DNA of 64,000 bases from Anaeroplasma bactoclasticum. Lineage in GTDB: Bacteria; Bacillota_I; Bacilli_A; Acholeplasmatales; Anaeroplasmataceae. The notes under the pieces were generated by a model that made no database searches, was not told the DNA's origin, and worked only from the letters and a program-made list of their open reading frames with translations. Positions 21,322-64,000 of the stretch are shown piece by piece (the first letter of the stretch is position 1; each line of letters starts with the position of its first letter). The DNA is taken from the NCBI GenBank assembly GCA_023663825.1, contig JAMPGQ010000001.1, forward strand, positions 1 to 64,000, read 5' to 3'. A program made the position numbers and the translations under genes.

Positions 21322-21346
21322 AAATATCACTCCTCGTTCATTTTTT

Positions 21347-25477: not shown

Positions 25478-28400
25478 TTAATCTAATTCTTTCTTTCTTT
25501 TTTTATTGATTGCACCATATTTATCACGATTAACACAAATTAAGATAATGATTAAAATTATGATTGCAATAGCAATTAAAATCCATGGCATAATTTGTTG
25601 CAGAAGTTCTGGTATAGAAAATCCTGAATTTAATGCAGTAGATTTTAATTTAAATGTTACATATTCTTCATCTGAACCATCAAATATTCTTACAACAACC
25701 TCTCTACAATTTTCATCACTAATATCTGATAAAACAGTAATTTCTGGTTTCTTATTGTAGGAATTTGAGGAATCATATTGTTCAGAATCAAATACGATAT
25801 ATTTTGCAAAATCTTCAATTGCAGATGCTCTCTTATCTACTAAATCAATTTCATAGATCTTTTTCTCCTCATTTAGAGTTGTCATTGTATAGTTATAAGC
25901 ATTCTCATCAATTGTATAGGACATTGCTTCACGCTCAACATTTACTACAATTGCACGAGTTGATACTTGATCCTCAGCATAAACAAGTACTACTACTGTA
26001 TTCATACCAACTCTTAAATAAACATCACTCTCATCTGGGAAACGAGGATCTCTTGCATTAATAACCTGATAAGTTGCACCATCACCATCTGCATCTGGTA
26101 ATTTTTCAGGTGTTACAATAACATCTAAAATTTGAATACCATTAGGCACCTTATAGCTATATTCTCTAATGTCGTTATTATATTCTGTTTTGAATACTGG
26201 AATTTGAGGAATATCAATTGCAGAAACATCTGTATTTGTTGAGGATTCTCCACGACGTTTAATTGTTAAAACATATTCTGTAGTTTTGCCATCAACAGAG
26301 GTTACCGCGATTGTAAAACGATTCAATCCCTCAACTAAATCAACATTAAAGCTTCTTAATAAGCCTGTAGTCGTTATGGCTGTTGAATTGCTACAAGTTA
26401 CAATATGGTTTTCATTATCTACTGATGCATTAATTGTTGCATGTAGAGTCATATAAGTAACAATTGTAGTATATTCATAAACATCCTTATCAAAGGTTGT
26501 ATTCTTATAATTAGTATCTAATAATTTTTCACCTGAGGCTTCAAGATTAGTTAAATAAGGATTTGGATAATCTCTTTGAACTGTAATACGATAGGTATAA
26601 GCTGTACCACTTTCAGAAGTAACAACGATAACAAATGTATTCATACCCTCATTTAATAGCTGAACGCCTAAATCACCAACAACAGTTGCCTTACTATCAG
26701 CAGAGGTATACCCAATTGTTACAGATGTAGTATCATATGGTCTAGTTGCTAAAGTATATGTACCACCTTCATCCTCTGGTGAAAAGCCTGGAACTGTAAC
26801 ACCATCTGCAGTTAAATCAGATAATTTAGCATTATCAGATGGAGCATCAAATTCTAACTCAATCGTATAAACATCACCCGGAGCTCCGTTTTCAGCTTGA
26901 ACTTGAACAGTTACTGTCTTCGTTTTTCCGCGATCAGAATCAAGAATTGTAGTTGTTTTTGTTCCACTTGTAACTGTTTGATTGTCAATTAAAACAATTG
27001 ATGGAGAATATCCTGGCTTAACTACTGTAATGGTATAGTTTTGAGCACTAAATGGAATATGATAAGTACCATAGGTTGTCTTGGAAACATCAAAGTCGTT
27101 TGCCCCTAAATGCGTTTGACCAGTACCATCAGAAACTTCAATATAGGTTAATGACTTATCAGCTGATAAATCAAGCTTGCCTCTTGATAAATTAACTGGA
27201 TAATTTGTCGTACTTCCATCCTCTGCAGTGACTGTTATTGTATAATAGAAGTTATTTTCATTTGCACTACCTAAGGTTTGATTTCCAGCTCCGTTTACTT
27301 TAGCTGTTGGATCATTAGGTACTGCAACAATGTTAATTGAAGAAACTGAATCACCTAATTCCTCAATTACAAGAGGAGAATTTCCAGGTAAACTTTGATG
27401 GCTTACTGTTTTTGGTTGACCAGTTCCATCTACATAAATAACAGTTAATTCCTTTAAGGTGGAATCTGAACTTTTTGCATTACGGATAATCGTAACTGTT
27501 ACAGAAGCTGACTGAGCATTTGTAGCAGTTGGATCAAGTTCACCATATTCACTCTTAATATAAATTACAAAGTTATTTGTACCATCCTTAAGTGTTACTA
27601 TTTGATTAGAATACTTTGCACCATTAACATAAATAGTTGAATTTGCTCCACCACCTAATACTTCTAGATAGGTTTGAGACACACTATTTGCAACAGTGAT
27701 AGATAAGTGATTATTTTCATAATCAATAAAGCTTGTACCATCTACATCTAATACATCAGCACCACCAGCTAAAACTAAAGCATTAACATCATCAATATCA
27801 AAATCAGTATCGGCTGGATAAACTGTAAATGTATAAACCTTCTTCTTGCCTGTTTGACTTACAACCGTAACACGCTTAATATTAGCACGCCCTGGAAGTA
27901 AGGTTAAATCTGTAGGCATTTCAATAGTTGCATTTTCTGAAACTGTAATTTCTGGATTAAATAATATTGTATCTCTACTTACAACATATTTATAATTTGT
28001 CTCTGTAGAAGTAACAGCTAAATTGGTTAAATTAACATCAGAAGGAGATTGATAATACTCGTATACAATAATTGAATTGTCATCACTACCTGCATCTCTT
28101 GTTATTGCAATTGAATAATCTGCAGAGGCACCAGATTCTGTAGTGATTCTAACCTTATAAGTAGATGTCCCAACTGGAATGCCAGTTACATTAAAGGCAT
28201 TAGAAGGACTAGATAATACATTACCTGTAGGTTCGACGATTGTTACTGTATTTTTAGTATACATTGTATTATATCTAAAAATTGCACTATCCTGATCAAA
28301 GGCTAAATTCACCTTATATCCAGAATAAATTTCAGGAGAGAAAAGTGGATTTAATTTATTCACTTCTACTCCACCCTCAGTGACAACAACAAATAAATCA

Positions 28401-31400: not shown

Positions 31401-33451
31401 TTAACACCTTTATTAGCCGTAATAGAAACACTACCTAAGGAGGTATCAGTATTTGCAGCTAAACGATTCACATCAATATAGAAGGTTTGAGTAAGGCCAC
31501 TTTTAGAGGTTACTACTAAACGAATTGTATCTGTAATTGCTCCCTTAGAGCCTCCATCACTAATATTAAATGTACAATTTCCACCTAATATATTCTGTGT
31601 AGAAGCAACACTTCCTTGGAAAGCCTCAACCTTACTAATTATAGAAGTGTCAGGGAAATTAACGCGCAGTGTATACTGCTTAGATGCAAATGGTAAATTA
31701 TTAATTGTAAAGTGATCATCACCATCTGCATCACTATCATTTGATGTAAATGAAGAACCTGTTCCCCCATTCACATCAACACGTGTTGGTTTTAAATTTA
31801 CCTCAGATAATGTACAGGTATAATCCTTTGTTGTTACACCATCTTGAGCTGTAACTGTAAATTTAACCTGTTGTCCATTTGTCCAAGTACTAGGAATGCT
31901 ATAAGAAGATCCTGAAGCAATCGTAGTACCTGCTGAGGTTGCAGGATAAGAAACTTTAATCGTTTTTCCTGTTCCTGTTGCCACAGGTGTAAATGACAAA
32001 TTTGATGTTCCCTTTGGCACATAAACTGTATAGCCTACTGTCCCAGAAGAAAATGATGGACTCAAAGTAGCATTTGCACCACCTGCAGAACCACTAACGG
32101 CCAGATTATCTAAATCTGCATTCTTATCTTTAGCCTTTGGTAACTCAACTGCATACCATTTCGTTTTATTACCAGAGGATGAAATGACTTGGAAAGTAGC
32201 ATATAAGCTTTGTCCAGGAGATACACTACTCATATCAACTGAAAATGAATTTCCACTCACTGTAGCAGTTGAATTTAATGACGTAAGTGATGTACCATAA
32301 CGAACTTGTGAAGCTGAATTAAGCTTACCACTATCTTGAACTGTTACTGTAACATTAGCTGTTCCATCACTAATCTCACTACCCTTATATTGTACAGTAG
32401 AGTCACCATTTACTGTAACATTACTAGTTGCTGTTATACATGACTTATTTTCAACTGTAATATCTGTAAGACCTACATTATCTGATAAACCAGCAACTGT
32501 AATAACACATGGATCTTCTTTAAATTGATTAGGAGCGGTTTTATAAGTTACTGCAGTTGAAGTACTTAATCCATCAGTAAATGCTGTATTAGCTATCGCT
32601 TGATCACTTACTTTACCATCTTTGAAAAACTCAATACTCATACTTCCAGAAACAGTTGAAGCAATAGTAAATCCTAATGCACCAACAAATGCTGGTGAAG
32701 GCGTGCTAGTTCTCGTTCCCGGAGAAGTCCAACCAATATTTCTACCAATATTTGTTTGATCAGCACCACTCATCGTATAGCTGGCAGCTTTAAGTTCCTC
32801 ATTCACATATCTTGTAATTCCACTCACTCCACCTTGAGCATATTTTGCTAAGTCCAAAACTACAACTGCCTGACGAATTGTAGGATTATTTTGAGCAGTA
32901 GCAGTGATAGATACTACTATTTCATCTCCTGGAACTGCTTGAGTAATTTTTGGATAAAAAGACTCATCTGATATATCCTTTGGTGGGAAATAATTTTTTA
33001 AAAAGCTATAAAATTCGTTATTTGTTTCAAACGAATAAAGCTGAGCCCCAGCAGCAAGTGAATATTTCTTATTTTTTCCTGTCCCTGAAATAACATAATC
33101 TCCACCAGATTGGTTTAAACTGGTAGATAAATAAAAATCAGTACCAAGATTATCAATCAATGAATAATCTGGATTACTTGGATTACTTTCGTATCCTTGC
33201 CATGCTTCAATAAGGGTATCCACATCATATGCATCACTTACTTTCAACCCAGAATCAACTATAAACTCAACTGGATTATTTAATGCATTTTGATACTTCT
33301 GCCATGTTTCTTTTGTATAAACATCATAATGGAAGGTCACTGTATCAGTAGTTACAGCCGCCCGAACACGAAGACTCCCAAATGTAACTAAGACAGTAAG
33401 ACTCATCAAAACCAGGAGTAGTCCTATTTTTAATTTTCTAAATTTTTTCAT
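25478..33451 (-). CDS. Giant membrane-anchored surface protein with cadherin-like stalk, 2,657 aa
   Basis: A cell-surface protein. The signal peptide (LKIGLLLVLMSLTVLVTFGS, cleavage near VRA-A at 30) leads to a unique head (about 33-310) that includes a 140-residue region resembling a cohesin. About twenty cadherin-like beta-sandwich modules follow, recognised by recurring NxTLKxFTINGxTVxGFxP, YxVxxxxxxxxxxxxxTxxxxxTTxxxxPxxS and YxxxVxRDxxDTN patterns. A C-terminal transmembrane helix (about 2,617-2,641, MPWILIAIAIIILIIILICV) and a basic tail NKKRKKELD anchor it in the membrane. The ATG at 33451 is preferred over an upstream start because AGAGGT is 7 nt before it and the signal peptide begins there. 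It lies 22 nt after the 5,637-aa gene and 16 nt before the EAL gene. It is a paralogue of the 3,158-aa protein. Confidence 0.88.
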   Translation of the reverse strand: MKKFRKLKIGLLLVLMSLTVLVTFGSLRVRAAVTTDTVTFHYDVYTKETWQKYQNALNNPVEFIVDSGLKVSDAYDVDTLIEAWQGYESNPSNPDYSLIDNLGTDFYLSTSLNQSGGDYVISGTGKNKKYSLAAGAQLYSFETNNEFYSFLKNYFPPKDISDESFYPKITQAVPGDEIVVSITATAQNNPTIRQAVVVLDLAKYAQGGVSGITRYVNEELKAASYTMSGADQTNIGRNIGWTSPGTRTSTPSPAFVGALGFTIASTVSGSMSIEFFKDGKVSDQAIANTAFTDGLSTSTAVTYKTAPNQFKEDPCVITVAGLSDNVGLTDITVENKSCITATSNVTVNGDSTVQYKGSEISDGTANVTVTVQDSGKLNSASQVRYGTSLTSLNSTATVSGNSFSVDMSSVSPGQSLYATFQVISSSGNKTKWYAVELPKAKDKNADLDNLAVSGSAGGANATLSPSFSSGTVGYTVYVPKGTSNLSFTPVATGTGKTIKVSYPATSAGTTIASGSSYSIPSTWTNGQQVKFTVTAQDGVTTKDYTCTLSEVNLKPTRVDVNGGTGSSFTSNDSDADGDDHFTINNLPFASKQYTLRVNFPDTSIISKVEAFQGSVASTQNILGGNCTFNISDGGSKGAITDTIRLVVTSKSGLTQTFYIDVNRLAANTDTSLGSVSITANKGVNDTICNSVSGPNLNITYPGGAAALPITYTKFDVAATAGNSLSTVQIKINNNVATTYTFSGVNAVNVPVSIVVTAEDGSTATYSGTVSRAGADANRDFTVTDLTYTYDNGTGATLNGTYTLAELAGSTATLSNASNPLPYLTKSVSFKVVPTSSTTKAYIDGVDKTNQLVTVPISNSATLQGTRIRVLIKSEADEITRPGNTTSGGDENWIEIKCDKPDGTRVIDNLVLNHSTSSAQISNSTNSSQSGKTYSFVLKESTVGARYKLGLTWSSSTTKAYVSKTNSSSIMVAANEYSQNSLWDIGQKVYIYLQSQDGNYDTYIVDTSFEDERSKENGIADVVFMNGSTSIPFNFVETTTTYPTSGTVRLPYSVTSLDVEVTVKNAKETLGAGSGFISGVPDSTLKVKQTVNLSAGQNVFKVQGVAENGQVGQVYTFTVVRDTAGTQKTIESLIINNVNTTDSSQIGVHFDSVFNKNDNAFSFYLPRGTAFLDVALTVSPGATFTITPSKGSNMTTSPFTCSIGDGEVVELMVNVKSEQETVDGSGSGKNYKIRIYCADTDNKLDNINFYETDDNYTDILDTSGSTFIFDPNLDSTAGVQTFTVPFPVKSAFLLPRKGGFNGTVAFDSATLANLSDGYTKQFPNPQNYTIQVKVVSELGKLASGDSKITDKTRTYSIRINRQTGSNNAYLSSLEIYIDGIKQNYSIGGVAQNFAKENVGPYMVENVKSTTGQANILAVPEDSKAKLSGDIDIQTVSLGASTNTQTYRITVTAEDEKTTRTYSIQIWTTRANPDTDKSLNSIRAYSSTSATNKLSPTFAQNTHAYTVHLSSLEDAAILDFVKNSENSTLYIESGSDNETVTAKTYQKTIPVAPDSTVVYTVYLTAQDGTSTKDENNEYTITITRDPADTNATLKEFTINGKTVTGFKPGDNGGQYEVYIGDVKDVYFDGVPTNETTTITTNPATSDSRYTLNIGSNILTVITTAQDGKTTCKYDVNVIKDAPKTLDDLFVVVTEGGVEVNKLNPLFSPEIYSGYKVNLAFDQDSAIFRYNTMYTKNTVTIVEPTGNVLSSPSNAFNVTGIPVGTSTYKVRITTESGASADYSIAITRDAGSDDNSIIVYEYYQSPSDVNLTNLAVTSTETNYKYVVSRDTILFNPEITVSENATIEMPTDLTLLPGRANIKRVTVVSQTGKKKVYTFTVYPADTDFDIDDVNALVLAGGADVLDVDGTSFIDYENNHLSITVANSVSQTYLEVLGGGANSTIYVNGAKYSNQIVTLKDGTNNFVIYIKSEYGELDPTATNAQSASVTVTIIRNAKSSDSTLKELTVIYVDGTGQPKTVSHQSLPGNSPLVIEELGDSVSSINIVAVPNDPTAKVNGAGNQTLGSANENNFYYTITVTAEDGSTTNYPVNLSRGKLDLSADKSLTYIEVSDGTGQTHLGANDFDVSKTTYGTYHIPFSAQNYTITVVKPGYSPSIVLIDNQTVTSGTKTTTILDSDRGKTKTVTVQVQAENGAPGDVYTIELEFDAPSDNAKLSDLTADGVTVPGFSPEDEGGTYTLATRPYDTTSVTIGYTSADSKATVVGDLGVQLLNEGMNTFVIVVTSESGTAYTYRITVQRDYPNPYLTNLEASGEKLLDTNYKNTTFDKDVYEYTTIVTYMTLHATINASVDNENHIVTCSNSTAITTTGLLRSFNVDLVEGLNRFTIAVTSVDGKTTEYVLTIKRRGESSTNTDVSAIDIPQIPVFKTEYNNDIREYSYKVPNGIQILDVIVTPEKLPDADGDGATYQVINARDPRFPDESDVYLRVGMNTVVVLVYAEDQVSTRAIVVNVEREAMSYTIDENAYNYTMTTLNEEKKIYEIDLVDKRASAIEDFAKYIVFDSEQYDSSNSYNKKPEITVLSDISDENCREVVVRIFDGSDEEYVTFKLKSTALNSGFSIPELLQQIMPWILIAIAIIILIIILICVNRDKYGAINKKRKKELD
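32537..32959 (-). other. Candidate cohesin-like domain in the head of the 2,657-aa protein
   Basis: Residues about 165-305 read as a single all-beta domain of cohesin length: YPKITQAVPGDEIVVSITAT at the start (compare the PGDTVTVPV opening of cohesins), then QAVVVLDLAKY, and near the end FVGALGFTIASTVSGSMSIE (compare the L-ATIxFKVK...SG strand pair), closing with TAVTYKTA. This is visual pattern matching to the type I cohesin order of elements; other carbohydrate-binding-module-like jelly rolls would look similar. Confidence 0.4.
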
Positions 33452-33473
33452 ATTTATACCTCTTTCTATCAGC

Positions 33474-36400
33474 CTACTCTGCTGGAGCATCTATTTCAGA
33501 TGCCCCACCATAAGTTGCTGGATAAGTTCCATCAAATGTATTGAAATCAACTGTAGGATCCTCAGAAATGTAAGTAACGTAGCCTTGAAGTTCTACAATT
33601 GTTGCATCTGAGAAGAATCCTATTTCTCTATTTGTAACACCACTAAAATAATAGTATGCTTCTACATCTGTAAATGTCATACCTTCTGAAACAAAGAATT
33701 GCGCCTCAGGTATGTCTGCATCTGAAATGTAACCATCACTATTTAAATCACCATATAAAATGCCTTGTACTGTATCTATAATTTGACCATCATCGTCAAG
33801 TAAGGAAACAGAGAAGCCTGAACCAAATGCCAAAATTGAATATGAATCTTTTTCAATTTCATTTCCTTGATGATCTAATACGATAAGTTTTTCTGGATCA
33901 TTTTTAAATTGTGCTATGATTTCACTAATAGGTGTGTCTTGGTGGAGATGTCCTAAATATAATCCATCTTCACCTGCTGCTAAATGTACAACAGAGCCAT
34001 CTTCTACAAAAGTCGTAGCGCCTTCTTCATAATTAGCAGTAATGAATTGAATTAATGCATCATCCTTCAATTCCAATACATCTGGTTTAGAAGCTACAAT
34101 TGTAAAATATTGAGTAGTTGGAGCAAAATAATAGATATCATTTGCTTTACTACTAATCAAAATTTCAGCCTTGCTATCTTCTGTTGTTACATCAATATTG
34201 TTTTGATATTCTATATCATAATGCTTTGGATCTAACTCTGTTAAAATATTTGTTGCAAGCTCTCGCAAATATACTGTAACAGGAGGTTCGATTGGGGTTC
34301 CTGTATGAATCCAAATTTCTTCATATTTGAATACTAAATCATAGTCTTCATTTGGTAAATTCTTTGGATTGATTGGGAAGGTTTGAATGATATCGTCAGT
34401 TCCATTGTTCTCCCAAGAATCATCGCCAGGATTCTTAAGCTTTATTTTAACCTCAATTTCATGCTTCCCATCCTCATCTACCTTACTATCGTCAATATCC
34501 ATAGTATATGGTAAATCAGCTGGTACCCAACCTGGAATTGTATCATCATATTTCCATAATTCACCTTGATCATCTATTAGATAAGTATGATATGGATCAT
34601 CTACTAGGTCAGGATTATCCTCAGCATCTTTTTTACGAATGTACTTATTTCCTTCCGTATCCTCTAAGACGATTGGATTTCCTGCTTCGTAGTCCTCATC
34701 TGGTGGTAATAATACAATATCCTTAATTACATTTTGAGTGATAACAAAGTCTTCAGCCATATTTGTAATTACATAATTTGGATCAGATGTAGTTGCTATT
34801 ACATCCCATTTTCCTTGATTAATGTAGCCAGTTGCTGGTTGAATATCTGCATTTACTCTATTACCACTAATATCAAGATAATATGCATTAGGGAGTAGTG
34901 GATTATCCACATCTCCTGTGTATTTTTGAGTTAAATTTTCCCAAGTTACTGTTACTGGTCGAGGATTAATTCTAATAGCTTGCTTAAATTCCTCACCAGC
35001 ATGCTCTAACGCATCATCTGAAATTTTTAAAACAAAGACATATCTTCCTGCATCTACAGGATTAGATGGCATTGCTTTACTTGGATCTAAATTATCCATA
35101 TTATGAATGTAGTAATCCCATTCATAATATTTAATATCATTTGTTACATTAGGATCTGTAGTAAAGAGTGGATCTTCAAATGGAATGCCATCATATACCT
35201 TGTTTTGATCATACTCAATATACGGAGCCTTATCTGCATCATTTGGTCCTGGATAATCTGGATCTGTTGGATCTGTAATAGGATTATCAGGATCGTCTGG
35301 GTTATTTGGATCTAGCCCAGGTGGATAAACTGGATTGTCTGGATCAACAATAACCAATCTAGCCTCCTTAATTAAGGTTTCATAATTTGGTGCAGAGATT
35401 CTTACACGAACATTATAAATACCGATTGCAGTTCTTTGAATTGCATCTAAAGGATAGAATGTATAATTTCCATTAGATAAAACGGCATATTCTGTAATTA
35501 CCTCATTTTCAAAATCAGCATAGACATATGGATCTACTGAGCCATCTGTCTTCTTTGTACCATTGATACGGGCTGCCATAGAAATTGGATTGCCTGTATA
35601 GAATACTGCCTTATCCTTGAAATCCACATCAAATTGACGCTCAACGATTTCTACATTCGCAAGTAAATTAACAACATAATTTTCCTTTGTAGGACCATTG
35701 ACCTCATTGCCCTCTGCATCATAAACTCTTAAATAGTTATTCTGCCAGTGGAAGCCTGGTTCAACACCTAAGGTTGTATAGGTTCCAACCATTGGTGAGG
35801 TTGTCATTAATATACCATTGTTAGAGGATTCTGTTAATCTTAAGGTATGACCTCTAACAAGATTTTCTACTTCCTCGTCCTTTACAGTATAGAACCATGA
35901 TAGATTGTCAAATTGCTTTGCTTGATTTGAAATATGAACTGTAATTGTACGTGGTGTAATCTCAAATGGTTCAAAGGAATGAACAACGCTGTTGTAATTT
36001 TGATTTGCAGGGAATTCAACATCAAGACGATATGTTCCAGCATCAATTGGATTATAATTTAGCTTAGATGCACTTCCATCTGAATTAATCTTATAATATG
36101 TATAAACACAGCTTGTTGTTGGACTACCATTATAGCTAATCGCAGGATTTGCTATAGGAGCACCATCATATATTTTGCCTAAACGTAAGTTCAAATCATC
36201 GAATTGAACCTCAGGTTCAGTACGTGTAATTGTAATTCCTGCCGTCTTTTCAAATACGGTTTCATTGGTTAAGGTATTTTTTATACGTACAGAAATTTGA
36301 TCTTGACCAACATCCATTCTTTGTGGCTTTCTAGTAGACCATGAGCTACTTTGACCTAATACCCAGTATTCAATAGAGAAATTCTCTGGGTCATCTACCA

Positions 36401-50387: not shown

Positions 50388-50452
50388 ACAAGATCACCTT
50401 TCTCATATATGGATTTTAAAATATATATTTTAAGATTTTTTAAAAGCATATT

Positions 50453-50470
50453 CAAAAAACTAGTTTTTTG
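50453..50470. repeat. 18-bp perfect palindrome in the leader of the 5,637-aa gene
   Basis: CAAAAAACTAGTTTTTTG is fully self-complementary and lies in the predicted 5' untranslated region. A second ACTAGT (about 50474-50479) follows closely. It may be a protein-binding dyad or a weak RNA hairpin. Confidence 0.5.
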
Positions 50471-50487
50471 CGTACTAGTCCAATTTG

Positions 50488-50516
50488 ATTATACTTCAAA
50501 ATGTCAAGCATTTCAA
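50488..50516 (-). promoter_or_regulatory. Strong promoter of the giant-giant-EAL operon
   Basis: On the minus strand TTGAAA (50511-50516), a 17-nt spacer and a perfect TATAAT (50488-50493). Transcription would begin near 50481, giving a leader of about 94 nt before the start codon at 50387. A 20-bp repeat abuts the -35 box. Confidence 0.8.
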
Positions 50517-50517
50517 C

Positions 50518-50578
50518 AAAAAAGAAGGCGTTTTTGTTAGAAAAATAACATTTTTTTTAAAAAAGAAGGCGTTTTTGT
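50518..50578. repeat. Two 20-bp direct repeats upstream of the giant-operon promoter
   Basis: AAAAAAGAAGGCGTTTTTGT occurs identically at 50518-50537 and 50559-50578, an offset of 41 nt, close to four helical turns. The first copy sits right next to the -35 box and is a dyad (AACAAAAA/TTTTTGTT around AGAAGGCG). This is the layout of activator or repressor sites. Confidence 0.7.
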
Positions 50579-50665
50579 CGTAGTTTCCAACTTTTTTAGA
50601 AGAAAGATTGCAAAATGTTTAATAATTTATAAAAAAAATTGCGTTTGCGTCGAATGTTTTAAGTA

Positions 50666-50706
50666 AGAAAAAAAGGCCGAATCTACATAAGTACATTCAG
50701 CCCTTT
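50666..50706 (-). terminator. Terminator of the right-hand giant gene
   Basis: On the minus strand AAAAGGGCTGAATGTAC and GTAGATTCGGCCTTTT form a long imperfect stem with a 4-nt loop and a T run, starting about 10 nt after the stop codon at 50717. Confidence 0.75.
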
Positions 50707-50716
50707 TAAACTGCTT

Positions 50717-53700: not shown

Positions 53701-56700
53701 TGCTTCCCGGTAAATAGAAATCAAATTGAAGCTCATGATTATTTACCATATTTTCAACAGAAGCACTATCTAAATGTACATCAAAATCAAACAATGGATC
53801 TGCTAAAACATAATCATTTTTATAATTGATCATTAATTCGTAAGGTAATATCGTATATTGGAAGAAGGAATTATCTAATCCGTAATTTGGATATCCAGCC
53901 GGTAAAACTGCTTCTACAGTGTAGGTTCCAGCTAAGATAGGATCTATACTTGACTCAACATCAAGTAAAATTTGAGTTCCCTCTAAGTCATATGCATAAG
54001 CAATTGGCTTTTGAATTTGACCATTGTAATAATATGCTTGTTCACTTTCCCAACGAATGTAAAGCTGCGTAGCAATAATTTCAAATTCAAATGCTTTAGT
54101 AGTCGTAAGATAATAATCATTTCCTTCTACTGTTATCTCAACAATATACTTACCAACCTCATAAGGCGTATCAATAGGATTTAATAAATCCACATCAGAT
54201 GCTAAATAGTATCTAAAGCTTGTATTTTCTTCAGTTGATACTACAGAAGAAATCACACTTGGATGGGAAACAGGAAGACCATTGAATGGCTGTCTTAAGT
54301 AATCTCCTTGAATATTTATATTCATATAATTTCTTTCAACAACATATTCAAAGCTCTTTGTGAAGCCCTTGTAATTTGCTGTATCCTTCGCAACGATTTC
54401 AACTGTATAGGTTCCAATTGAGAAGGTTGAATAAGTTTTCAAACCATTCTTATAGAACTGAATTGTAGAAGGAGCAGCAAATGGAACAATCGTATATCCG
54501 ATTGTAATATCCTTACCATCAAACATCTTGCCTGAAATACTATCTGAATCATCAAACTCAATATCTAATTGCGCTGGTTCAATGACAAAATGAATTCTAC
54601 CAGTTGTAGTTTCATAATTTGTTGCAGAAATCGTATAGGTAATGTTCATCTCACATACATTTTTATAATTTTGAGGAATCGTATAAGAACCACTTGATGT
54701 TCTGTATAATATTCTTGTATTTCCTATAGCTGGAACTACTGTAGCATTATGGCTTTGTCCATCATAGGTATACCTTAATTCCCATACACCATCTACTAAA
54801 ACTGCATCTTGAACAACGTGTTCAATCGTTGGGTTTGTAATGGTAACATAAATACCATAGTATGTAATTGTGAAGAATTCAGTTACATCTATTCCATCCT
54901 CTGTTAGAATTCTAATGTCGTTTAATTCAATTTGGTGATTAGTATTACTTGAATAGCTTCCCTTTTCAGCACTTACTGTAGAAATTGTACCTGTAAAATG
55001 CATACCTTCAGGTAATAAGGAATCAAATTCTTGCATTGACTTTTCATATTTAGCTCCTGTATATACCATACGGTCCTCAAAAGAAATAGACACTCTATGA
55101 GAAACGATTGTATAAGAAAGAGTAGACATATCTAATACATAATTATTAAATTCCTCTGATAATGTCAAATCAACCATTTGACTTCCTACACTAATTCCAT
55201 CATATCCATCATGTGGAGTTGCTATAATTGTATATTGTCCATCCTGTGCTCCAGAAACGAATACATTAGGATAAACAAAGCTTCCCATATAGGATATAGA
55301 AGTATTTCCCCATTCAACACGTAATAATTTCGGCGAAATATTAAATTCAAATTCTTCATCATAAGCTAAAGTATTTGCATCCTCAGCTAAAGTGATTCTC
55401 AGTTTATAAGAACCAACAGAAGTTGGAGCTCCATCTAATACTACACCATCTAAAGTATAATATCTAAATTCAGGAGTTGATGTTGAATTTGTAGTCAATG
55501 TTGGGGTAGGATAAGCTAAACCATCATAAATATAATTCTTTACAAGATTGAATTCAACATGTGGTGTAGTTTTTTGGATTGTAACCTCTAAATCAAAGCT
55601 GAAATTGAAATTACTATTGCTAATTGCTACATCATTAATCGTTACTCGAATAGAAACAGGAGAAATATAAATTTGTCCATTTGATGTAGAATAAGCTTCC
55701 TCTTGAGCTACATTTGGCTCAATACTAAAGTTGAACTCGACTATAGAATCATTATCCTCAACTAAAGTAAATGGAACTTTATGGGTATAGATATTTTTAG
55801 AATTGTAAATGCAATCTGGATCAACAAGCTCTATAGCTATATCTCGCTTTGCAATACTAAATTCCTTATATGCAACAATACCATCATAATTTTCATCTGC
55901 AGGTAAATTAACAATTAATAGCCAATCTCCAGCAGCAACTGCATCTTCATAAGTAAGTAGCTGATAGCGATCAGATAAAGCTAAGGAAGCTAATTCTTCT
56001 TCACTTAAATCCGTACGCTTCATTCTATAGGTTAGAACAACCTCTTCTGTACTACCTGTTGTCTTGATAAAGTCCTCAACATTTGAACTTACACCTAATG
56101 TATCATAAACCTTATTTAAGTTTTCAGTTAAAATCTGAATGGTTGATGAATTTCTTGCAATCTTAAGTGTGATGATTCCATAAACTGGCTTATAATGATC
56201 ACAGAAGACACGATAGAATAAGGTATACGTTCCTGCATTACACCAATCAAAATCAGTTAAGGCAGTACCTGTTGCTTGAACCCAAATGTCATTATCAATG
56301 CTATATTCAATGCTTGCATCTTCCTTATTTGCTTGAATATGGAAGTTATGAAGAATACCCTCCTCATGAGTTGCTGTAAATGTAAATTCTTGATAGATGT
56401 TACCATTAAGTAGCTCATTTCTAGTTTCTTCACAGGCTGCTTCATTCGTATCTTCTACTGTTACTGCAATAGATGGATATACGACATTGATTTCACCACT
56501 AAAGACAATACGATAATTATCAGAATAATATTGGCCTGTAAGTTCATTTTTATAAATAACCTCATCACCTATCATTGCATTATCGCTATCTACACCTAAA
56601 AGCTTAAAGCCTTCATCCTTAAAGCCATATCGGCCTAACTCGTTTGGTATGATAATTCTAAACTCAACATCATGAACTAGCTCTTTTATTTCAGTTGAAT

Positions 56701-59700
56701 TTTCAGTTTTTGCTTCTACTTGAACCTTTATACTAGATTGGTAGATGTAGCTTAATACATCTGCTCCTGGTATATATTCAAGCTTATCAATTTCACCTAA
56801 ATCAATTAAAAGCTCTTCTTGACTAACACCAAAGGTTAAATCATAAATTGGTTCACGATATAATGGATTACGATAATCACGCCACTGATAATTATTTGGA
56901 TTTCTAAGCTTAGCATATATGTGATACATATCAACCGGCAAATAGGTCTTTTTCTTATCCTCACATAAATTACTATAGATATGGTTATTATTATAGAAGT
57001 TTTGGAACAAGTTTTCTGCTGTTGCTAAATCATCTGCACCAGCAATCAGAATCGTACACTCAGGATCTAAATAATAATCATATAGATTAGAAACTGTCAC
57101 ATCAATATATTTACTCATATTAATCTTATCAAAAGATAAAGCACTATAAACTGATGGAGTATCTACTGTTATCTTAGCTAATGTATAGAGGTTATATGCA
57201 TTCAATAAAATATAATTTCTTGATGTTGTTGTAGCCTCAACAGATAATACACCAGCATTATTAATTAAGATTTGATCTGACTTAAAGCTTGCATCACACA
57301 GATACTTGAGTAAGGATACATCATCATTAAAGATTTCAACATAAATAGGACAAACCTCATATGCAGAATAGCCATCTTTAACTACCACATAAGCAATAGG
57401 TAAAATGAATTCTTTAGATTCATTAAACTCAGTTTCTAGATTTCTCCAGTTTACCATTATCTCTTGTGGTTTAACTAAAACACTTACATTAAAGGATACT
57501 TCATAATTCTTAGTTAAATCTATACCATTCTTTGTAATTGTATAGGCTTTTTCCCAATGATAATTTAAAGCCATATCTGTATATGCATTAACATTTCCAC
57601 TTGCATCAATATAAACATCTGGTTGATTTAAGCTTAAGCAGCCATTAAATACTTCACCATCTGTTGCAAAATTAGAAATCTGAACACTAGAATTAGAACT
57701 ATCCCAGTTTGAATTAGACCAAATATCTCCTTCTTCAAAGACCTTCTCATCATCTACCTCAACAGAAAGTACACGACGAATAATCTTAAAGGAAATCTTA
57801 GCACCATCTGGTACTAAACCTAAAGCCATATTCTCTGTATTTGCAACAATATCTGAATACCAAGGATACTCTGTGATTTCATCACACCATAAATCCTTAT
57901 CTACTCTTAAATCGGATTCAAGTTCTTCGGTTGATGGGTCCTTATCATTATTAACAAATAAGTTTGTAAAGATTGCTGTATTATTTGTAAATACATAAAC
58001 CCAAGCATTTGAAATTACATTACCATCCTCATCATAGCTTACATCTAATATATTATGGTATTTTACTACATATTCACCATGACCTGCTACACCTATTATA
58101 TCATAGGTAGGTAATGTAGCATCACCAACTAAAACGGTATTTTCATTATCTACATCAAAGCTAATAACAGGCTTTGGCATAAATTCTTCACCTGAATAGG
58201 TAATGAAATATCCATTTTCCTCGTCATACATTAATCCTTCTAGACTATCTAAATCTAAAGTGATTTTTGTAGCACTAAGTAATAGTTGGTAAATAGCTTG
58301 CCCTCTATCAAGTGTCCATGTAATTCCTTGTCCATAATATACTAATCCTGTAGACCCACCAAGCCATTCTTCTTCAGCAATATAGCCTGCTTCTAAAGCT
58401 TCAGCTTTTGTCTTACATACATATGCTACAAAAGAATCTCCACCTTGAATAATATCTTTTCCTAAGGTTTTAACATTATTTGCAATAGCAATACCTGTAA
58501 TGCTTAATTGAGCCTTAGTTAAATCTATATACTTTTCCTTTAGAATTGTATAATAATACTCTATAGTAGCCTCATCATAGCCAAGTAATGCACCATCTGC
58601 AATTTCAACCACAGGACGTTGACTCTTATATTCTGGAATACGTAAAATATAACGACTATATTGAGCATCTCTGTGATTAATAATATGTTCTGGCAACAAT
58701 TCTGTAAAGCCTACAATCTTAAAGCTATTAGTATGATAATCGTATTCGTATTCAAATATATCTGAATCCTCTTCATAATATACGATATATTTTGTATGCC
58801 ACTTTTTAGCAACAGGCATATCATTTCCTGTTACCCAACCCTCAGGGAATCTACTATCTATGCTATAGCTTGCAGTGATAAAGAATATTTCATCAGGATG
58901 CTCTTCATCGCCCTCATACATATTCTCAAATACTGCTTCATGTAAAATCTCAGCAGGCTTTGGAACATTGATATATCTAAGATTTGTATCTCCACTAAAG
59001 GCAGCAGTTTCAATTTCATTAATATGATATGGAAGCTTTACATCATAAACTGTTGTAACTCCGGACATCTGTCCATTAGTAATGATATCAAATGTATCTA
59101 AGAAGACTACACTTGCAAGACCACTAGGAATCCAGAAGGCCTCACCAAACACACTAGGAGTTAGAGTGATTTGTCCTGTTTCATCAATATAATTACCATA
59201 GCCATCCGTATCATATGCAATGGTATTGAATTCATTTTTAAAAGACTTCTTAATTGTTTGTTGTGTTAATTCATCATAATACTTCATAAATTGATGAATT
59301 AATGTTGCATGATCATATACTTCACGACCAAAGATGTAGCCAAACAAAGACTCTGATCCAGATTGTGTAGCATAGCTTGCTTGCTTTGGATGATTAGAGC
59401 CAATAAATGGTAGGGTAATTTTTTCAATACTACCACATCCATTAAAGGCAGCATAACCAATATGAGTAACTTCTTCTGGAACGTAAAGTTCTAAAACATC
59501 TTCATTAGCTCTAAATGCATAATCCCCAATCCAATTTAGCTTAGCTGGAAGCTTAATTTCTTTTAAATCGGTATGATCAAATGCATAATCCTCAATCGTT
59601 TGAATAGATTCTGGAATATCAAATTCAGGTAAATTCAAATCTCCCATAAAGGTTGCTTTTTTAATTGTAACTATTTCCTTATTTGTAAATACTGCTTCTA

Positions 59701-62700
59701 CTAGCCCTGTACAATCTGCAAACATATATTCCCCAAGGCCAGCAGCTACATCCTTCATAGAAGCATGCATAGATACCTTTTCAAGATGTGTTGCTTCTGC
59801 AAAGATATAATTTCCAAAATAGATAACCTCTTCTGGAATCACTAGTTCCATAGGATTTATAGCCTGTTGAGTAGCTTGATAGAACATATGATCACTTAAA
59901 ATCGCATTTAAAATTGTAATATGCTCTAATGCATAGGTATAACTAAAGGCATAATCGCCAACCTCAGTTAAGTTTTCTGGTAAGGTAATACTTAGTAGCT
60001 TAGTAGCATAAGCAAACGCATATCTACCTAAGTGTCCTAAGGCATTTAAATCTACTTGCTCAACTGCTTCTGTATGGAAGAAGGCATAATCGCCAATTAC
60101 CTCTACATTTTGAATATCTAAGCTTTCCATACCTACACAATATGCGAAGGCATAATCACCAATGCTTTCTATACTCTCTGGAATAACAATCTTATAAGCT
60201 TCATTTTCATTAAAGCTATTTAGTACATCACAGCCATAGAATGTATATTCTAAAATTTCATGAATTTGATTTCCAGCATAAGAAATCTTAGCTAAACTAT
60301 CATTTTCATAGAAGGCATATCTACCTAAATAAACTGTATTCTTAGGAAGAATCAAGCCCTCATTTATAGAATTTCCAACTAAGGATTTACAATTATAGAA
60401 TGCATAATCCTCTATTCTATATTCTTTAATAGAATCATCTGATTCAAGTAAAATATATTCTACATCCTCAAAATTCATAAATGCGCCATAAGGAACACAA
60501 GAGGCATTAGAAGTAACTGTAACCTTCTTTAAAGCTTTAGGTACATAATAGGTCTGTTCTACAGCTGAATCAGAATATCTTTGAACGATTGGACGAAGTA
60601 AAGAATTTGTATTCACATCCTTACCAAAGATATATCCGAATAAAGCCTCTTCATTAGGAGTAGTATAGCTATGTGCTCCTACATAAGGAACTGTAATCTC
60701 TGTCAATCCTATACAACCACCAAAGGCTGCATACCCAATAGATTTAACCTCATTTGGAACAACCACATGATCTAAAACAGGATCATTAAAGAACATATAT
60801 TCACTTATTTTTGTATTATGGATAGATACAGTTTGAAGCTTATCACATTCTGCAAAAGCATAATCACCAATATCATCACCTATCGTTTCAGGAATATAGA
60901 TGCTTTCTATAGAATCACAATTATAGAAGGCACGACTCTTGATAGTCAATAAGCTTGAAGGTAAGTACACCTTATACTCATTTGTTTCATTGAAGGAAGT
61001 TAAATCTACACAGCCCTGGAATGCTGAAACTCCAATAGAGCTTAGCATAATAGTTTTAGCATCTGTTGTATCTACAAAGGATATCGTTTCGATATTTTGA
61101 GCACCATAGAACGCTCCATCTTCAATAATTTCTAAGCAATATGGCAACGTAATATTTTGTAGCATATCACATTCAAAGAATGTTCCAATATGCAATACTC
61201 TTTGAAGACGAACTGTTACATCAGTCAATGAAATTGGTACTTCTACAGTCATAGCTGCACCAACTAAACGCTGATCTAAGCTCATCAATAATGAAGAATT
61301 ATAATATGAATCTATGTTATCCTTTCCAAATAGATAGCTGAAAATAACATCCTTGCCATCATTTTCCGTTCCAACACAGGCATCCTTCATTTCTTTACCA
61401 ACAAATGGTAAATCTAGACTAATTAAATTACCACAGCCACCAAAGATATGCTCACCAATTAAAGTAACTGAATCTGGAATAATAATATTCTTTAAGGATA
61501 TATCATTGAAGAATACCTTATTTCCTAATTCATTTATATTAGCTCCAATATGAACATAATCTAATTCGAAATGATTAGGAGTAGTGATTGTTGTTAATGA
61601 ATAGCAATTATAGAACAACCCATCCTCTAGCTTAGTTATCAAATCGCCATTAAAATCAATTCTTCTTAGGTTCTCACAATTCTTAAATGCATATGCTCCT
61701 ATAGAAAGAATTGTTTGTGGAACTATGAAGCATTCTGCTTCAATATATTTCGGATCAGATAATGCCTTTGTTCCTAAGCTTACACATCCAGCAAAGGCAT
61801 ATTCCCCAATGGTTTCGAAATATCTTGTTCTGCCTGGTCTTTCCTCATTAGAAAGATCAATTGTTGTAATATTTGAACAATTACTAAATGCACCAAAACC
61901 AACGTGAGCATCATTTTGAACATGAACAATTCTTAAGGATGCTGGAATATAGAAGGTTTCAGTTTGGGTTTCTGATACCATTTGCTTTGTTTCTAAGACA
62001 AGAGGGTGAGTAGATGCAACAGCACTACTATACTTTGTCTCAGTTCCAAATATCCATCCAAGTAAAGCTTCTACACCATCTGAAACATAAGGATGTGCAC
62101 CTACAAATGGAATCCAAATTTCAACCAAGCTAATACAATCTCCAAAGGCTCCAGCACCAATTTCTGTTAAATCATTTGGCAAGCTTGCCTCAGTTAATCT
62201 AGGACAATTATAGAATTGGTATTCACCTAAAACCTGATTATGAATTGTAACATATCTTAATTCAGAGTTATTTGCAAAGGCATAAGGATCAATTCGATCT
62301 ACAACAGAAGGAATGACAACGCTCCTTAAAGCTGGAATTTCATAATCCTCCTTTGTAATATCAAAATCAGCTGGGAAATTGTCCTCATTATCAAACATAT
62401 GAGCACCAATCCAGTGGTTATTGATAACAATCTCACTTAATCGATCACAGCCAGCAAATACATATTCTCCTACAATACCAGCATCAGTAGTACCAACTTG
62501 ATCAGCAACAACTACTTTTTCAATAGAATTACAGTTTTTAAATGCTCTATCCTTTAAGGCAGTAACTAAATTTGGAATCCAAACACTATTTTTTCCATCC
62601 ATGCTGTTGAAGCGAATTAAGGATATAGCATCTTCAAAAGCACTTACCCCAATTTCTTCTAAACATGCAGAATTATAGCCACCATCAAAGGTTACTTCCT

Positions 62701-64000
62701 CTAGATCACAAGCATTATAGAATGCATAGTCCTCAATAATCTTTAGCATTTCAGGTAAATCCACAGAAGTTAAATAAGATACATTAGAGAAGGTACCATA
62801 ATGAATCACCTCTGTATTTGTAATGATTATGTTCGTTAGATTCTTAGGAATATAATACTCTACACTATCTTCTTCCTTGCTGCCAAATGCTTGAGTAATT
62901 GCCTTAAATTCAGTTAAAATATCCTCATGATAATTCAAATACTGTTCTTCCCCACCAAATAAATAACCATATACAGTTTCTTTACTATCGTAGGTTGGAT
63001 CATATTCACAAATTTCATATTTTTGAGCTCCTACAAATGGTAGTGTTAATTTTTCAATATGACCAGCACCACCAAATATTGCATTTCCAATTGTAGAAAT
63101 TTGATTTGGTAAAATAACTTCCCTTATTGCAATTGTGTTAAAGAATACATAATCCCCTAAAGAAGTTACACTATTCGGAACGGAAACAATATTTTCTATA
63201 GTCTGATTTTCTGTAAAAATCGTCTTTAGCTCATAATCATTATAGAAAGTACCTGTTGCAATTTCTAGGATTTGAATTCCATCCTCAAAGGTTACCTTTT
63301 CTAAAGCTTCCATATTCTTAAAGGCATATTCTAAAATCGTATCTACAGATTTTGGAATGAATAATTCTGTAAAGCTTTCATTCTTACATGTATCAAAGCC
63401 ATGTGCTCCTATCTTCTTTGTTGTGTTAGGGAAGTTTATTCCTTCTAAGCCTATACAATTGTTAAATGCATATGCTCCTACCTCAACAAATGGATTTGCA
63501 TCATCATACCCTTCTGGTAAAATGACCTCTCTTATCTCAATTGCATTTTCAAAGCCATAATCCTTTATCTTTGTATCATTTGTAACTTCTACATGTATTA
63601 AGCTCTTTGGTAAATAATAGGTATTCTCATTTTGTACTACCTCATACAATCCTTCTTCATTTCCTTCAATTATTTCTTCTAAGCTACTACTAAAGATATA
63701 TCCAAAGGTTGTTACATCATCTGGATTTGTATGATGTCTATATTCTCCTACAAATGGTATACTTAACTCCTCTAAGCCTATACATCCTCCAAATACATTA
63801 TTCTTAATTGTATTTACATGTTTTCCAATCACAAAGCTTTCTAGACTTGCGTTGTTAAATAATGCTCCTTCTTCAACCGCTAAAACAGAATCTGGGAAGG
63901 TATTTTCTAAACCACTTAAATCACTTCCTAGGCTTTCTGCTACCTTCATATTTCTTATCTTTGCATCATTTGCAAATACATAGCGACTGATTTCCTTTAA
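50717..64000 (-). CDS. Giant LRR_5/YDG-repeat surface protein with dockerin C-terminus, 5' end outside the window
   Basis: A partial gene: at least 4,427 codons, open through the right edge. The ATG at 63949 is not the start. It has no ribosome binding site, and the 17 codons before it (ending YVFANDAKIRN) continue the leucine-rich repeat. LRR_5 repeats run from the edge to about 58800. A linker region follows, then about 14 YDG/MBG-type modules (about 56120-51300), and last an Ig-like module with QNYTGSAIRPLPTLKYYG. The C-terminal 58 residues are a full dockerin with two calcium loops (GDLTGDGICDYND and ADITNDRYVDDSD). No C-terminal membrane helix or LPXTG is present, so attachment to the cell must come from the missing N-terminus or through the dockerin. 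The 5,637-aa protein is its paralogue with the same domain order. Confidence 0.92.
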   Translation of the reverse strand, partial: LKEISRYVFANDAKIRNMKVAESLGSDLSGLENTFPDSVLAVEEGALFNNASLESFVIGKHVNTIKNNVFGGCIGLEELSIPFVGEYRHHTNPDDVTTFGYIFSSSLEEIIEGNEEGLYEVVQNENTYYLPKSLIHVEVTNDTKIKDYGFENAIEIREVILPEGYDDANPFVEVGAYAFNNCIGLEGINFPNTTKKIGAHGFDTCKNESFTELFIPKSVDTILEYAFKNMEALEKVTFEDGIQILEIATGTFYNDYELKTIFTENQTIENIVSVPNSVTSLGDYVFFNTIAIREVILPNQISTIGNAIFGGAGHIEKLTLPFVGAQKYEICEYDPTYDSKETVYGYLFGGEEQYLNYHEDILTEFKAITQAFGSKEEDSVEYYIPKNLTNIIITNTEVIHYGTFSNVSYLTSVDLPEMLKIIEDYAFYNACDLEEVTFDGGYNSACLEEIGVSAFEDAISLIRFNSMDGKNSVWIPNLVTALKDRAFKNCNSIEKVVVADQVGTTDAGIVGEYVFAGCDRLSEIVINNHWIGAHMFDNEDNFPADFDITKEDYEIPALRSVVIPSVVDRIDPYAFANNSELRYVTIHNQVLGEYQFYNCPRLTEASLPNDLTEIGAGAFGDCISLVEIWIPFVGAHPYVSDGVEALLGWIFGTETKYSSAVASTHPLVLETKQMVSETQTETFYIPASLRIVHVQNDAHVGFGAFSNCSNITTIDLSNEERPGRTRYFETIGEYAFAGCVSLGTKALSDPKYIEAECFIVPQTILSIGAYAFKNCENLRRIDFNGDLITKLEDGLFYNCYSLTTITTPNHFELDYVHIGANINELGNKVFFNDISLKNIIIPDSVTLIGEHIFGGCGNLISLDLPFVGKEMKDACVGTENDGKDVIFSYLFGKDNIDSYYNSSLLMSLDQRLVGAAMTVEVPISLTDVTVRLQRVLHIGTFFECDMLQNITLPYCLEIIEDGAFYGAQNIETISFVDTTDAKTIMLSSIGVSAFQGCVDLTSFNETNEYKVYLPSSLLTIKSRAFYNCDSIESIYIPETIGDDIGDYAFAECDKLQTVSIHNTKISEYMFFNDPVLDHVVVPNEVKSIGYAAFGGCIGLTEITVPYVGAHSYTTPNEEALFGYIFGKDVNTNSLLRPIVQRYSDSAVEQTYYVPKALKKVTVTSNASCVPYGAFMNFEDVEYILLESDDSIKEYRIEDYAFYNCKSLVGNSINEGLILPKNTVYLGRYAFYENDSLAKISYAGNQIHEILEYTFYGCDVLNSFNENEAYKIVIPESIESIGDYAFAYCVGMESLDIQNVEVIGDYAFFHTEAVEQVDLNALGHLGRYAFAYATKLLSITLPENLTEVGDYAFSYTYALEHITILNAILSDHMFYQATQQAINPMELVIPEEVIYFGNYIFAEATHLEKVSMHASMKDVAAGLGEYMFADCTGLVEAVFTNKEIVTIKKATFMGDLNLPEFDIPESIQTIEDYAFDHTDLKEIKLPAKLNWIGDYAFRANEDVLELYVPEEVTHIGYAAFNGCGSIEKITLPFIGSNHPKQASYATQSGSESLFGYIFGREVYDHATLIHQFMKYYDELTQQTIKKSFKNEFNTIAYDTDGYGNYIDETGQITLTPSVFGEAFWIPSGLASVVFLDTFDIITNGQMSGVTTVYDVKLPYHINEIETAAFSGDTNLRYINVPKPAEILHEAVFENMYEGDEEHPDEIFFITASYSIDSRFPEGWVTGNDMPVAKKWHTKYIVYYEEDSDIFEYEYDYHTNSFKIVGFTELLPEHIINHRDAQYSRYILRIPEYKSQRPVVEIADGALLGYDEATIEYYYTILKEKYIDLTKAQLSITGIAIANNVKTLGKDIIQGGDSFVAYVCKTKAEALEAGYIAEEEWLGGSTGLVYYGQGITWTLDRGQAIYQLLLSATKITLDLDSLEGLMYDEENGYFITYSGEEFMPKPVISFDVDNENTVLVGDATLPTYDIIGVAGHGEYVVKYHNILDVSYDEDGNVISNAWVYVFTNNTAIFTNLFVNNDKDPSTEELESDLRVDKDLWCDEITEYPWYSDIVANTENMALGLVPDGAKISFKIIRRVLSVEVDDEKVFEEGDIWSNSNWDSSNSSVQISNFATDGEVFNGCLSLNQPDVYIDASGNVNAYTDMALNYHWEKAYTITKNGIDLTKNYEVSFNVSVLVKPQEIMVNWRNLETEFNESKEFILPIAYVVVKDGYSAYEVCPIYVEIFNDDVSLLKYLCDASFKSDQILINNAGVLSVEATTTSRNYILLNAYNLYTLAKITVDTPSVYSALSFDKINMSKYIDVTVSNLYDYYLDPECTILIAGADDLATAENLFQNFYNNNHIYSNLCEDKKKTYLPVDMYHIYAKLRNPNNYQWRDYRNPLYREPIYDLTFGVSQEELLIDLGEIDKLEYIPGADVLSYIYQSSIKVQVEAKTENSTEIKELVHDVEFRIIIPNELGRYGFKDEGFKLLGVDSDNAMIGDEVIYKNELTGQYYSDNYRIVFSGEINVVYPSIAVTVEDTNEAACEETRNELLNGNIYQEFTFTATHEEGILHNFHIQANKEDASIEYSIDNDIWVQATGTALTDFDWCNAGTYTLFYRVFCDHYKPVYGIITLKIARNSSTIQILTENLNKVYDTLGVSSNVEDFIKTTGSTEEVVLTYRMKRTDLSEEELASLALSDRYQLLTYEDAVAAGDWLLIVNLPADENYDGIVAYKEFSIAKRDIAIELVDPDCIYNSKNIYTHKVPFTLVEDNDSIVEFNFSIEPNVAQEEAYSTSNGQIYISPVSIRVTINDVAISNSNFNFSFDLEVTIQKTTPHVEFNLVKNYIYDGLAYPTPTLTTNSTSTPEFRYYTLDGVVLDGAPTSVGSYKLRITLAEDANTLAYDEEFEFNISPKLLRVEWGNTSISYMGSFVYPNVFVSGAQDGQYTIIATPHDGYDGISVGSQMVDLTLSEEFNNYVLDMSTLSYTIVSHRVSISFEDRMVYTGAKYEKSMQEFDSLLPEGMHFTGTISTVSAEKGSYSSNTNHQIELNDIRILTEDGIDVTEFFTITYYGIYVTITNPTIEHVVQDAVLVDGVWELRYTYDGQSHNATVVPAIGNTRILYRTSSGSYTIPQNYKNVCEMNITYTISATNYETTTGRIHFVIEPAQLDIEFDDSDSISGKMFDGKDITIGYTIVPFAAPSTIQFYKNGLKTYSTFSIGTYTVEIVAKDTANYKGFTKSFEYVVERNYMNINIQGDYLRQPFNGLPVSHPSVISSVVSTEENTSFRYYLASDVDLLNPIDTPYEVGKYIVEITVEGNDYYLTTTKAFEFEIIATQLYIRWESEQAYYYNGQIQKPIAYAYDLEGTQILLDVESSIDPILAGTYTVEAVLPAGYPNYGLDNSFFQYTILPYELMINYKNDYVLADPLFDFDVHLDSASVENMVNNHELQFDFYLPGSKRIKDMVYNNINDFVIRNVIITADGIDVTRSFHITYNLYVEIHLPRIEYYFEGATLENGRYHYTKEYDGEALVPELVILTEPEDCLVIFEYDEYIAAGQYEVEYQIALANHETVSSKLIITIERMSYDIELTNELDKVYDGNIVFPEILINGINMNTTEFSDLGILVFVNYYQDGNYLNYAPADAGSYLMRVIVCQTTNYKETHFEHSFTISRADGDIRVNELKDGTYDFIKIYDGQPISVSRKSDDLDTNIIYETNGNILADYTFYDKDGNVVPAIVDAGNYTIIFTVEEYGNYNAYISRPYTIEVYRSHLFLGDLDKEFTMEYDDGKRFAVSADVFKSLEVEPVKEWLANSNIYNVIDVNIVETATEFSFVGNIYTIAGRQGVYINNEHFDTSEIQVFDKTGKNVTNNYIVDVFMKVTIKPAKVVVLSRDSVEEYDGRAYTIPAPRPQLDDLNETYRILYSNDGINYQLSAVTYTDCGVHTIYYKVVFENFETVEGSATLTINPGPVKEILLTKPLSKEYDGNPVSEPSYSTNTNGKASYQWFMKTSSGWEEVDSAIEIGHYKVLIDIEAATNYLATSAEFEFDITINTIEIRWSETNFSYNGTAQTPRAYLTEAVKGGLDLIITVTGADALSIKRGKYTATVTTTDSHYILTNASVDYEIGYQAINVPEKIVRTYTGRPITVEFNTGRPTDEATNGISSTVKSVTAVGTTLTTLSLVDKENYIWILSDGSETTDDINVEIVVVAANITPLENGNLIEGLDAAPIADQNYTGSAIRPLPTLKYYGITLVQGRDYTLSYRNNADPGVQTATVIVKGVGNFTGTLELAFTIKVNVFGLAEGSNYRFLRASNSQTLVDEPSHRIYKSNIRIIISNVETRTTIADFLKNLTIQEGQTILVYNSNNLKITAQNYETTYVGTGFRVQLKQGNLVKDLLYVSVIGDLTGDGICDYNDMMEVQKHIVGITNLGYEYYKAADITNDRYVDDSDLIEMMQNI
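50720..50895 (-). other. Complete dockerin domain
   Basis: The last 58 residues of the right-hand giant protein contain two F-hand-like calcium loops in the type I dockerin arrangement, DLTGDGICDYND and DITNDRYVDDSD, each followed by a helix (MMEVQKHIVG, LIEMMQNI). All the calcium-coordinating Asp/Asn-type positions are filled, with Thr at the third position. Confidence 0.85.
51300..56120 (-). repeat. About 14 YDG/MBG-type modules in the right-hand giant protein
   Basis: Modules with cores YIYDGLAYPTPTL, YTYDGQSHNATVV, KMFDGKDITIGY, YYYNGQIQKPIAY, KEYDGEALVPELV, KVYDGNIVFPEI, KIYDGQPISV, EEYDGRAYTIPA, KEYDGNPVSEPS, FSYNGTAQTPRAYL and RTYTGRPITVEF follow one another. The order of kinds matches that in the 5,637-aa protein. 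Less clear modules extend to about 57450. Confidence 0.75.
58800..64000 (-). repeat. BspA-type leucine-rich repeat block, continuing past the right edge
   Basis: Several dozen LRR_5 units of about 23 residues (for example TEVGDYAFSYTYALEHITIL and THIGYAAFNGCGSIEKITLP), broken by six inserts of the PFVG...GYIFG...YYIP kind. LRR_5 domains of this type are common in surface proteins of gut and oral bacteria and eukaryotic parasites. Confidence 0.85.

Follow-up and report, generated by a model that had tools for sequence, protein, structure and literature searches.

Dockerins are known outside cellulosomes, mostly without known partners. The locus described here raises the question of how a giant surface protein that ends in such a module is held at the cell, and in particular whether it is captured by a membrane-anchored stalk encoded next to it. 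The window, that is, the whole 64,000-nucleotide stretch of DNA analysed, lies on contig C11 of a 2.06 Mb Anaeroplasma bactoclasticum assembly that is 96% complete; the nearest relatives of this genome are labelled Anaeroplasmataceae or Mollicutes MAGs. The only dockerin of the genome is part of a very large open reading frame (10–17 kaa in several species). The cluster offers one obvious candidate partner, so that the partner question is testable with two small recombinant domains.

The surface genes of the cluster are all on the minus strand, as is every window feature located below. In the direction of transcription they encode a giant leucine-rich repeat (LRR) protein, a second LRR protein of 5,637 aa, a 2,670-aa stalk, a 964-aa GGDEF/EAL protein, a 372-aa lipoprotein and a 3,161-aa transmembrane (TM) protein, followed by IleRS. 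The stalk gene overlaps its neighbours or is separated from them by 20 nt or less. The lipoprotein (positions 21347–22465), which contains Big_3 domains, is kept in five genomes of the genus, and the 3,161-aa protein (11845–21330), a second stalk-like protein with cadherin-like and InlB-B-type repeats, is not found in all species; these two are missing from some operons, whereas the stalk is conserved in every operon. A literature search combining Anaeroplasma with dockerin returned only work on animal feeding and gut communities and nothing on such a system, and we found no description of the cluster.

The giant is cut by the window edge. What had been taken for a 4,410-aa protein (50717–63949) is the C-terminal quarter of a single 16,497-aa ORF that extends from 50717 to contig position 100210, with its C-terminal 4,427 aa inside the window (50717–64000). 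Its length was considered as a possible assembly artefact, and this was rejected: dockerin-bearing open frames of 10.7 to 17.2 kaa recur in independent assemblies of relatives (G003, G005, G006, G009 and G052), which makes an assembly accident unlikely. LRR_5 repeats predominate in the scanned stretches of the protein and score up to 1,331 bits per 5,000 aa (PF13306), identifying them as BspA-type; they are followed by beta-rich repeats and then by the dockerin. At its N-terminus the giant begins with a single strong hydrophobic segment. The 5,637-aa protein (33474–50387) likewise begins with a single strong hydrophobic segment, a probable N-terminal signal, and carries LRR_5 repeats in its N-terminal half.

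The original prediction held that both LRR proteins end in dockerins, and this proved correct for one of them. The giant terminates in a full type-I dockerin (50720–50884) that is the only one in the genome above the Pfam cut-off for PF00404 (26.1 bits in the genome search against a cut-off of 22.9, and 23.8 bits with the C-terminal 160 aa as query). Two F-hand calcium loops, DLTGDGICDYND and DITNDRYVDDSD, are spaced 34 residues apart, and both loops and their constant spacing were found in all eight orthologues compared. The calcium loops are thus intact in all giants, suggesting retained function of the dockerin. The 5,637-aa protein ends instead in a half-dockerin (33585–33764), in which calcium loop 1 (DLNSDGYISDAD) is kept and loop 2 is lost, so that the two-loop definition of a dockerin does not apply; the state is identical in 8/8 orthologues from two genera, and Pfam made no PF00404 call on this protein. 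The accompanying claim that neither protein has another C-terminal anchor was borne out, with nothing of the kind after either C-terminal module. A search for sortase (PF04203) gave no match in the genome, while control searches were positive in 3/14 genomes. A wall-less cell as the rationale for non-covalent anchoring was also considered, and was dropped on account of the penicillin-binding transpeptidases encoded in this genome.

The stalk (25478–33490, with the probable true start at Met14, position 33451) comprises an N-terminal signal, 12 Pfam cadherin-like stretches, a C-terminal TM segment at residues 2634–2653 (25532–25591) that is conserved in eight stalks, and a strongly conserved basic cytoplasmic tail, NRDKYGAINKKRKK (25481–25531), in agreement with the expectation of a long stalk fixed in the membrane. 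Its head is not one simple block. A first beta strand at residues 50–58 (TVTFHYDVY, 33317–33343) matches the start of an insert-free, compact head in G052 (L110), and is followed by an alpha/beta insert of about 105 aa (residues 60–165, 32996–33313), which is modelled at pLDDT 83–94 in the orthologue L028 and gave no PDB match by Foldseek. The remaining beta head, at residues 168–335 (32486–32989), contains the region 32537–32959 that had been proposed as a cohesin, and is here a candidate cohesin only. Sequence divergence along the stalk is greatest in the head, with 27–53% identity within the genus versus 61–73% at the membrane-proximal end, and in G006 the operon is present with a different stalk head.

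The arrangement of the stalk gene and its two neighbours is conserved across two genera. Related loci were found with an alignment as query, whereas a search with the single stalk protein gave no match. The order half-dockerin giant, stalk, EAL gene occurs in G000, G003, G005, G006, G007 (where the giant is a fragment) and G009, as well as in G052, which belongs to a second genus; in G038 the half-dockerin giant precedes the stalk on one contig and the stalk precedes the EAL gene on another. A head profile search that was blind to gene order led to a head in G052 whose gene comes right after that of a half-dockerin giant. Among genomes of the genus, seven carry both the stalk and the dockerin and four carry neither one (Fisher p 0.003, the genomes being phylogenetically non-independent), and across the family the stalk tail was found in 9/12 dockerin genomes versus 4/43 others (p 2e-5, with the same non-independence). 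Stalks without a strong dockerin occur in G022, G024, G038 and G050, which counts against the pairing, although all four are fragmented assemblies. The comparison across genomes supports a predicted pairing of stalk and dockerin. The EAL gene directly follows the stalk in 13/13 loci, with gaps of −4 to 21 nt, and these loci include three genomes without any dockerin match.

The identification of the head as cohesin-like (residues 165–305 in the earlier numbering) was supported by none of the approaches applied, namely Pfam, an HMM of relatives' cohesins with decoys, profile-profile comparison, and Foldseek on two AlphaFold models. Pfam Cohesin (PF00963) gave no match to the stalk head at E ≤ 10. 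An HMM was built from 24 Pfam-defined cohesins of relatives and tested with decoys and shuffles; true cohesins scored 20 to 112 bits when each was withheld in turn, and the heads scored −2 to 7.2 bits, no better than decoy stalk windows (p 0.16; the 99th percentile of 265 windows taken elsewhere in the stalks is 6.9 bits). Profile-profile comparison of the head with cohesins, using hhalign on eight stalks, was not significant, the head windows being tied at the top with one other stalk region (22.0 and 22.2; mean 13). In the two AlphaFold models, obtained with five usable sequences, the beta head was mostly at pLDDT 26–49, which makes them an unreliable guide to the nine-strand jelly roll of cohesins, and Foldseek on both models returned no cohesin for a beta head that lay mostly below pLDDT 50. 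Local and global hhalign and phmmer against the PDB were also tried and gave no support. Local matches that fall in register at PGxEIVVxV and at GDYEI-type strands are suggestive by eye, but their scores are similar to those of other stalk windows. The strand order appears cohesin-like by eye, chiefly in G038 and G052, and is only a lead. Elsewhere in the genome no cohesin was found at Pfam sensitivity, an outcome that the original prediction had itself listed as counting against it; the best Pfam match (E 0.545) sits in an unrelated lipoprotein and is not above chance.

The cluster also lacks the features of a cellulosome, with one dockerin above the cut-off, no Pfam cohesin in the genome and, as had been anticipated, no glycoside hydrolase domain among the scanned cluster proteins. 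Non-cellulosomal cohesin and dockerin modules were reportedly reviewed by Peer et al. 2009, which is reference 34 of PMC2930009. The present case resembles such modules in that a dockerin occurs in a genome without a cellulosome, on surface proteins that are not glycoside hydrolases, and differs in that its only dockerin belongs to an LRR protein of 16.5 kaa encoded next to a TM stalk, in a genome where no cohesin is recognisable. Dockerins in huge bacterial proteins (PMC11573180) and presumably non-cellulolytic bacteria bearing scaffoldins (PMC11557425) have been described. Secreted LRR-dockerin proteins are found in Ruminococcus flavefaciens FD-1, for which 28 LRR modules have been tabulated (PMC2930009). 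The giant shares secretion and the combination of leucine-rich repeats with a dockerin with these proteins; R. flavefaciens, however, has a large cellulosome with many cohesins, whereas here we find one dockerin, no cohesin call, giant size and a fixed operon with the stalk and the EAL gene. The eukaryotic TMEM132 family, single-pass adhesion proteins in which a cohesin was detected by HHpred (PMC6030884), offers a parallel to the stalk, being single-pass with a conserved region, a cohesin-type domain and then Ig-like domains; unlike that case, the head here is encoded by a bacterial gene and its profile comparison with cohesins was not significant.

The protein encoded after the stalk (22567–25461, 964 aa) is a membrane protein with an N-terminal TM segment, a degenerate GGDEF domain, an EAL domain, a coiled coil and a C-terminal domain of about 130 aa that is strongly conserved and has no Pfam or NCBIfam name. 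The GGDEF motif is lost and most EAL catalytic positions are kept, so that the stalk may be linked to hydrolysis or sensing of c-di-GMP. In the LapD/LapA system, c-di-GMP controls the retention of a giant adhesin. As there, a giant surface protein and a TM protein with degenerate GGDEF and EAL domains are encoded together; in contrast to LapD, the protein here has no periplasmic domain, there is no outer membrane, and the EAL residues appear mostly intact. Membership in the LapD family was rejected, since the NCBIfam LapD score of 80.6 bits against a cut-off of 1020 reflects generic GGDEF-EAL similarity. The constant pairing of stalk and EAL gene makes this cluster a concrete starting point in the search for c-di-GMP control over surface giants in Anaeroplasmataceae.

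Together, these observations point, tentatively and with a probability that we put a little short of even, to a conserved non-cellulosomal dockerin-based surface assembly with the stalk as candidate holder of the giants, and to an assembly that is possibly c-di-GMP-linked. Two giant LRR proteins, one with a full dockerin and one with a half-dockerin, would be exported without a sortase-type or C-terminal membrane anchor. The stalk, built of cadherin-like beta domains and held in the membrane through its C-terminal TM segment, would carry at its distal end a head that is variable and has two parts; this head, which may have a cohesin-like fold, would bind the dockerin, the giants would act as adhesins, and the linked TM GGDEF/EAL protein might tune the system through c-di-GMP. 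The dockerin most likely serves to attach the giant to a further surface protein, non-covalently and in a calcium-dependent manner. Among possible holders the stalk ranks first, being the most constant partner, and its head is the leading candidate for the dockerin receptor. In a more specific version, the basic tail would couple the stalk to the GGDEF/EAL protein, c-di-GMP would control the display or release of dockerin-tethered giant adhesins, and the receptor would be a cohesin diverged past recognition. We regard this version as distinctly improbable; if true, it would give Gram-positive-type gut bacteria their own functional analogue of LapA/LapD.

A somewhat unlikely alternative is that the head functions on its own as an adhesin or a ligand-binding domain, that the dockerin is a calcium-binding cap with no partner or binds outside this cell, and that the genes are neighbours through co-regulation of surface proteins. 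No cohesin is detectable in the genome or in the head, the strong divergence of the head is as expected of a ligand-facing domain, and the loss of half of the second dockerin implies that tight dual-loop binding is not required of the half-dockerin. However, this alternative does not sit well with the co-occurrence of stalk and dockerin in the genus (7/7 versus 0/4) or with the two intact calcium loops in all giants. The dockerin might also bind a cryptic cohesin carried by some other surface protein of this cell; examples are the second TM protein, the lipoprotein or a protein encoded off the contig. Cohesins can diverge past the reach of Pfam, and G052 and G054 have Pfam cohesins in proteins other than the head homologue; yet the genome under study has no Pfam cohesin above chance, its best match lying in a different lipoprotein, and the lipoprotein and second TM protein of the cluster are absent from some operons in which the stalk is always there, making this reading quite improbable.

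The N-terminal hydrophobic segments of the two LRR proteins could anchor the giants without the stalk, and this counts against a stalk-held assembly. On that basis the giants would be held by N-terminal signal anchors, the dockerins would join giants into a surface layer, and the stalk would be a separate sensor for the EAL protein, in keeping with the inseparability of stalk tail and EAL gene even where a dockerin match is lacking. The segments nevertheless resemble ordinary secretion signals preceded by basic residues, and we consider this arrangement very improbable.

In relatives, pairs of neighbouring genes show that non-cellulosomal cohesin/dockerin surface pairs occur in this bacterial order and family, a second and clearer non-cellulosomal system, and this counts in favour of the assembly proposed here. 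G069 and G071 each encode a genuine pair, in which a TM protein containing three cohesins recognised by Pfam (79.5 bits in G069, 69.4 in G071) adjoins an exported protein with a dockerin; the G069 partner is a subtilase. In G040 and G048, a genome search placed a dockerin lipoprotein (with a Pfam subtilase domain in G040) beside a cohesin-bearing membrane protein; the G040 cohesin match was not repeated by a whole-protein Pfam scan, and that case is less firm. The G069 and G040 systems, to which G071 and G048 are similar, share with the present cluster adjoining genes, a membrane-anchored partner with N-terminal beta domains, an exported dockerin partner and membership of the same order or family; they differ in that their heads are Pfam cohesins in several copies and that in G069 and G040 a protease, in place of an LRR giant, bears the dockerin. 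The loci with a TM cohesin protein beside an exported dockerin protein are L085:4629-17679, L086:2385-13432, L088:5704-14678 and L089:5548-11907, and the cohesin/subtilase-dockerin neighbours among them (L085 and L088) are possibly a non-cellulosomal protease display system. At three further loci (L087:4207-7452, L090:411-7226 and L091:31495-38265), a Pfam cohesin is followed by a Pfam dockerin in one ORF, and such proteins could self-assemble into chains. Finally, a second dockerin protein is encoded on contig C70 of G006 (L084:6833-15351), in a frame split by a stop near 7829–7831, and the gene after it encodes a small TM protein whose cytoplasmic tail is long and charged.
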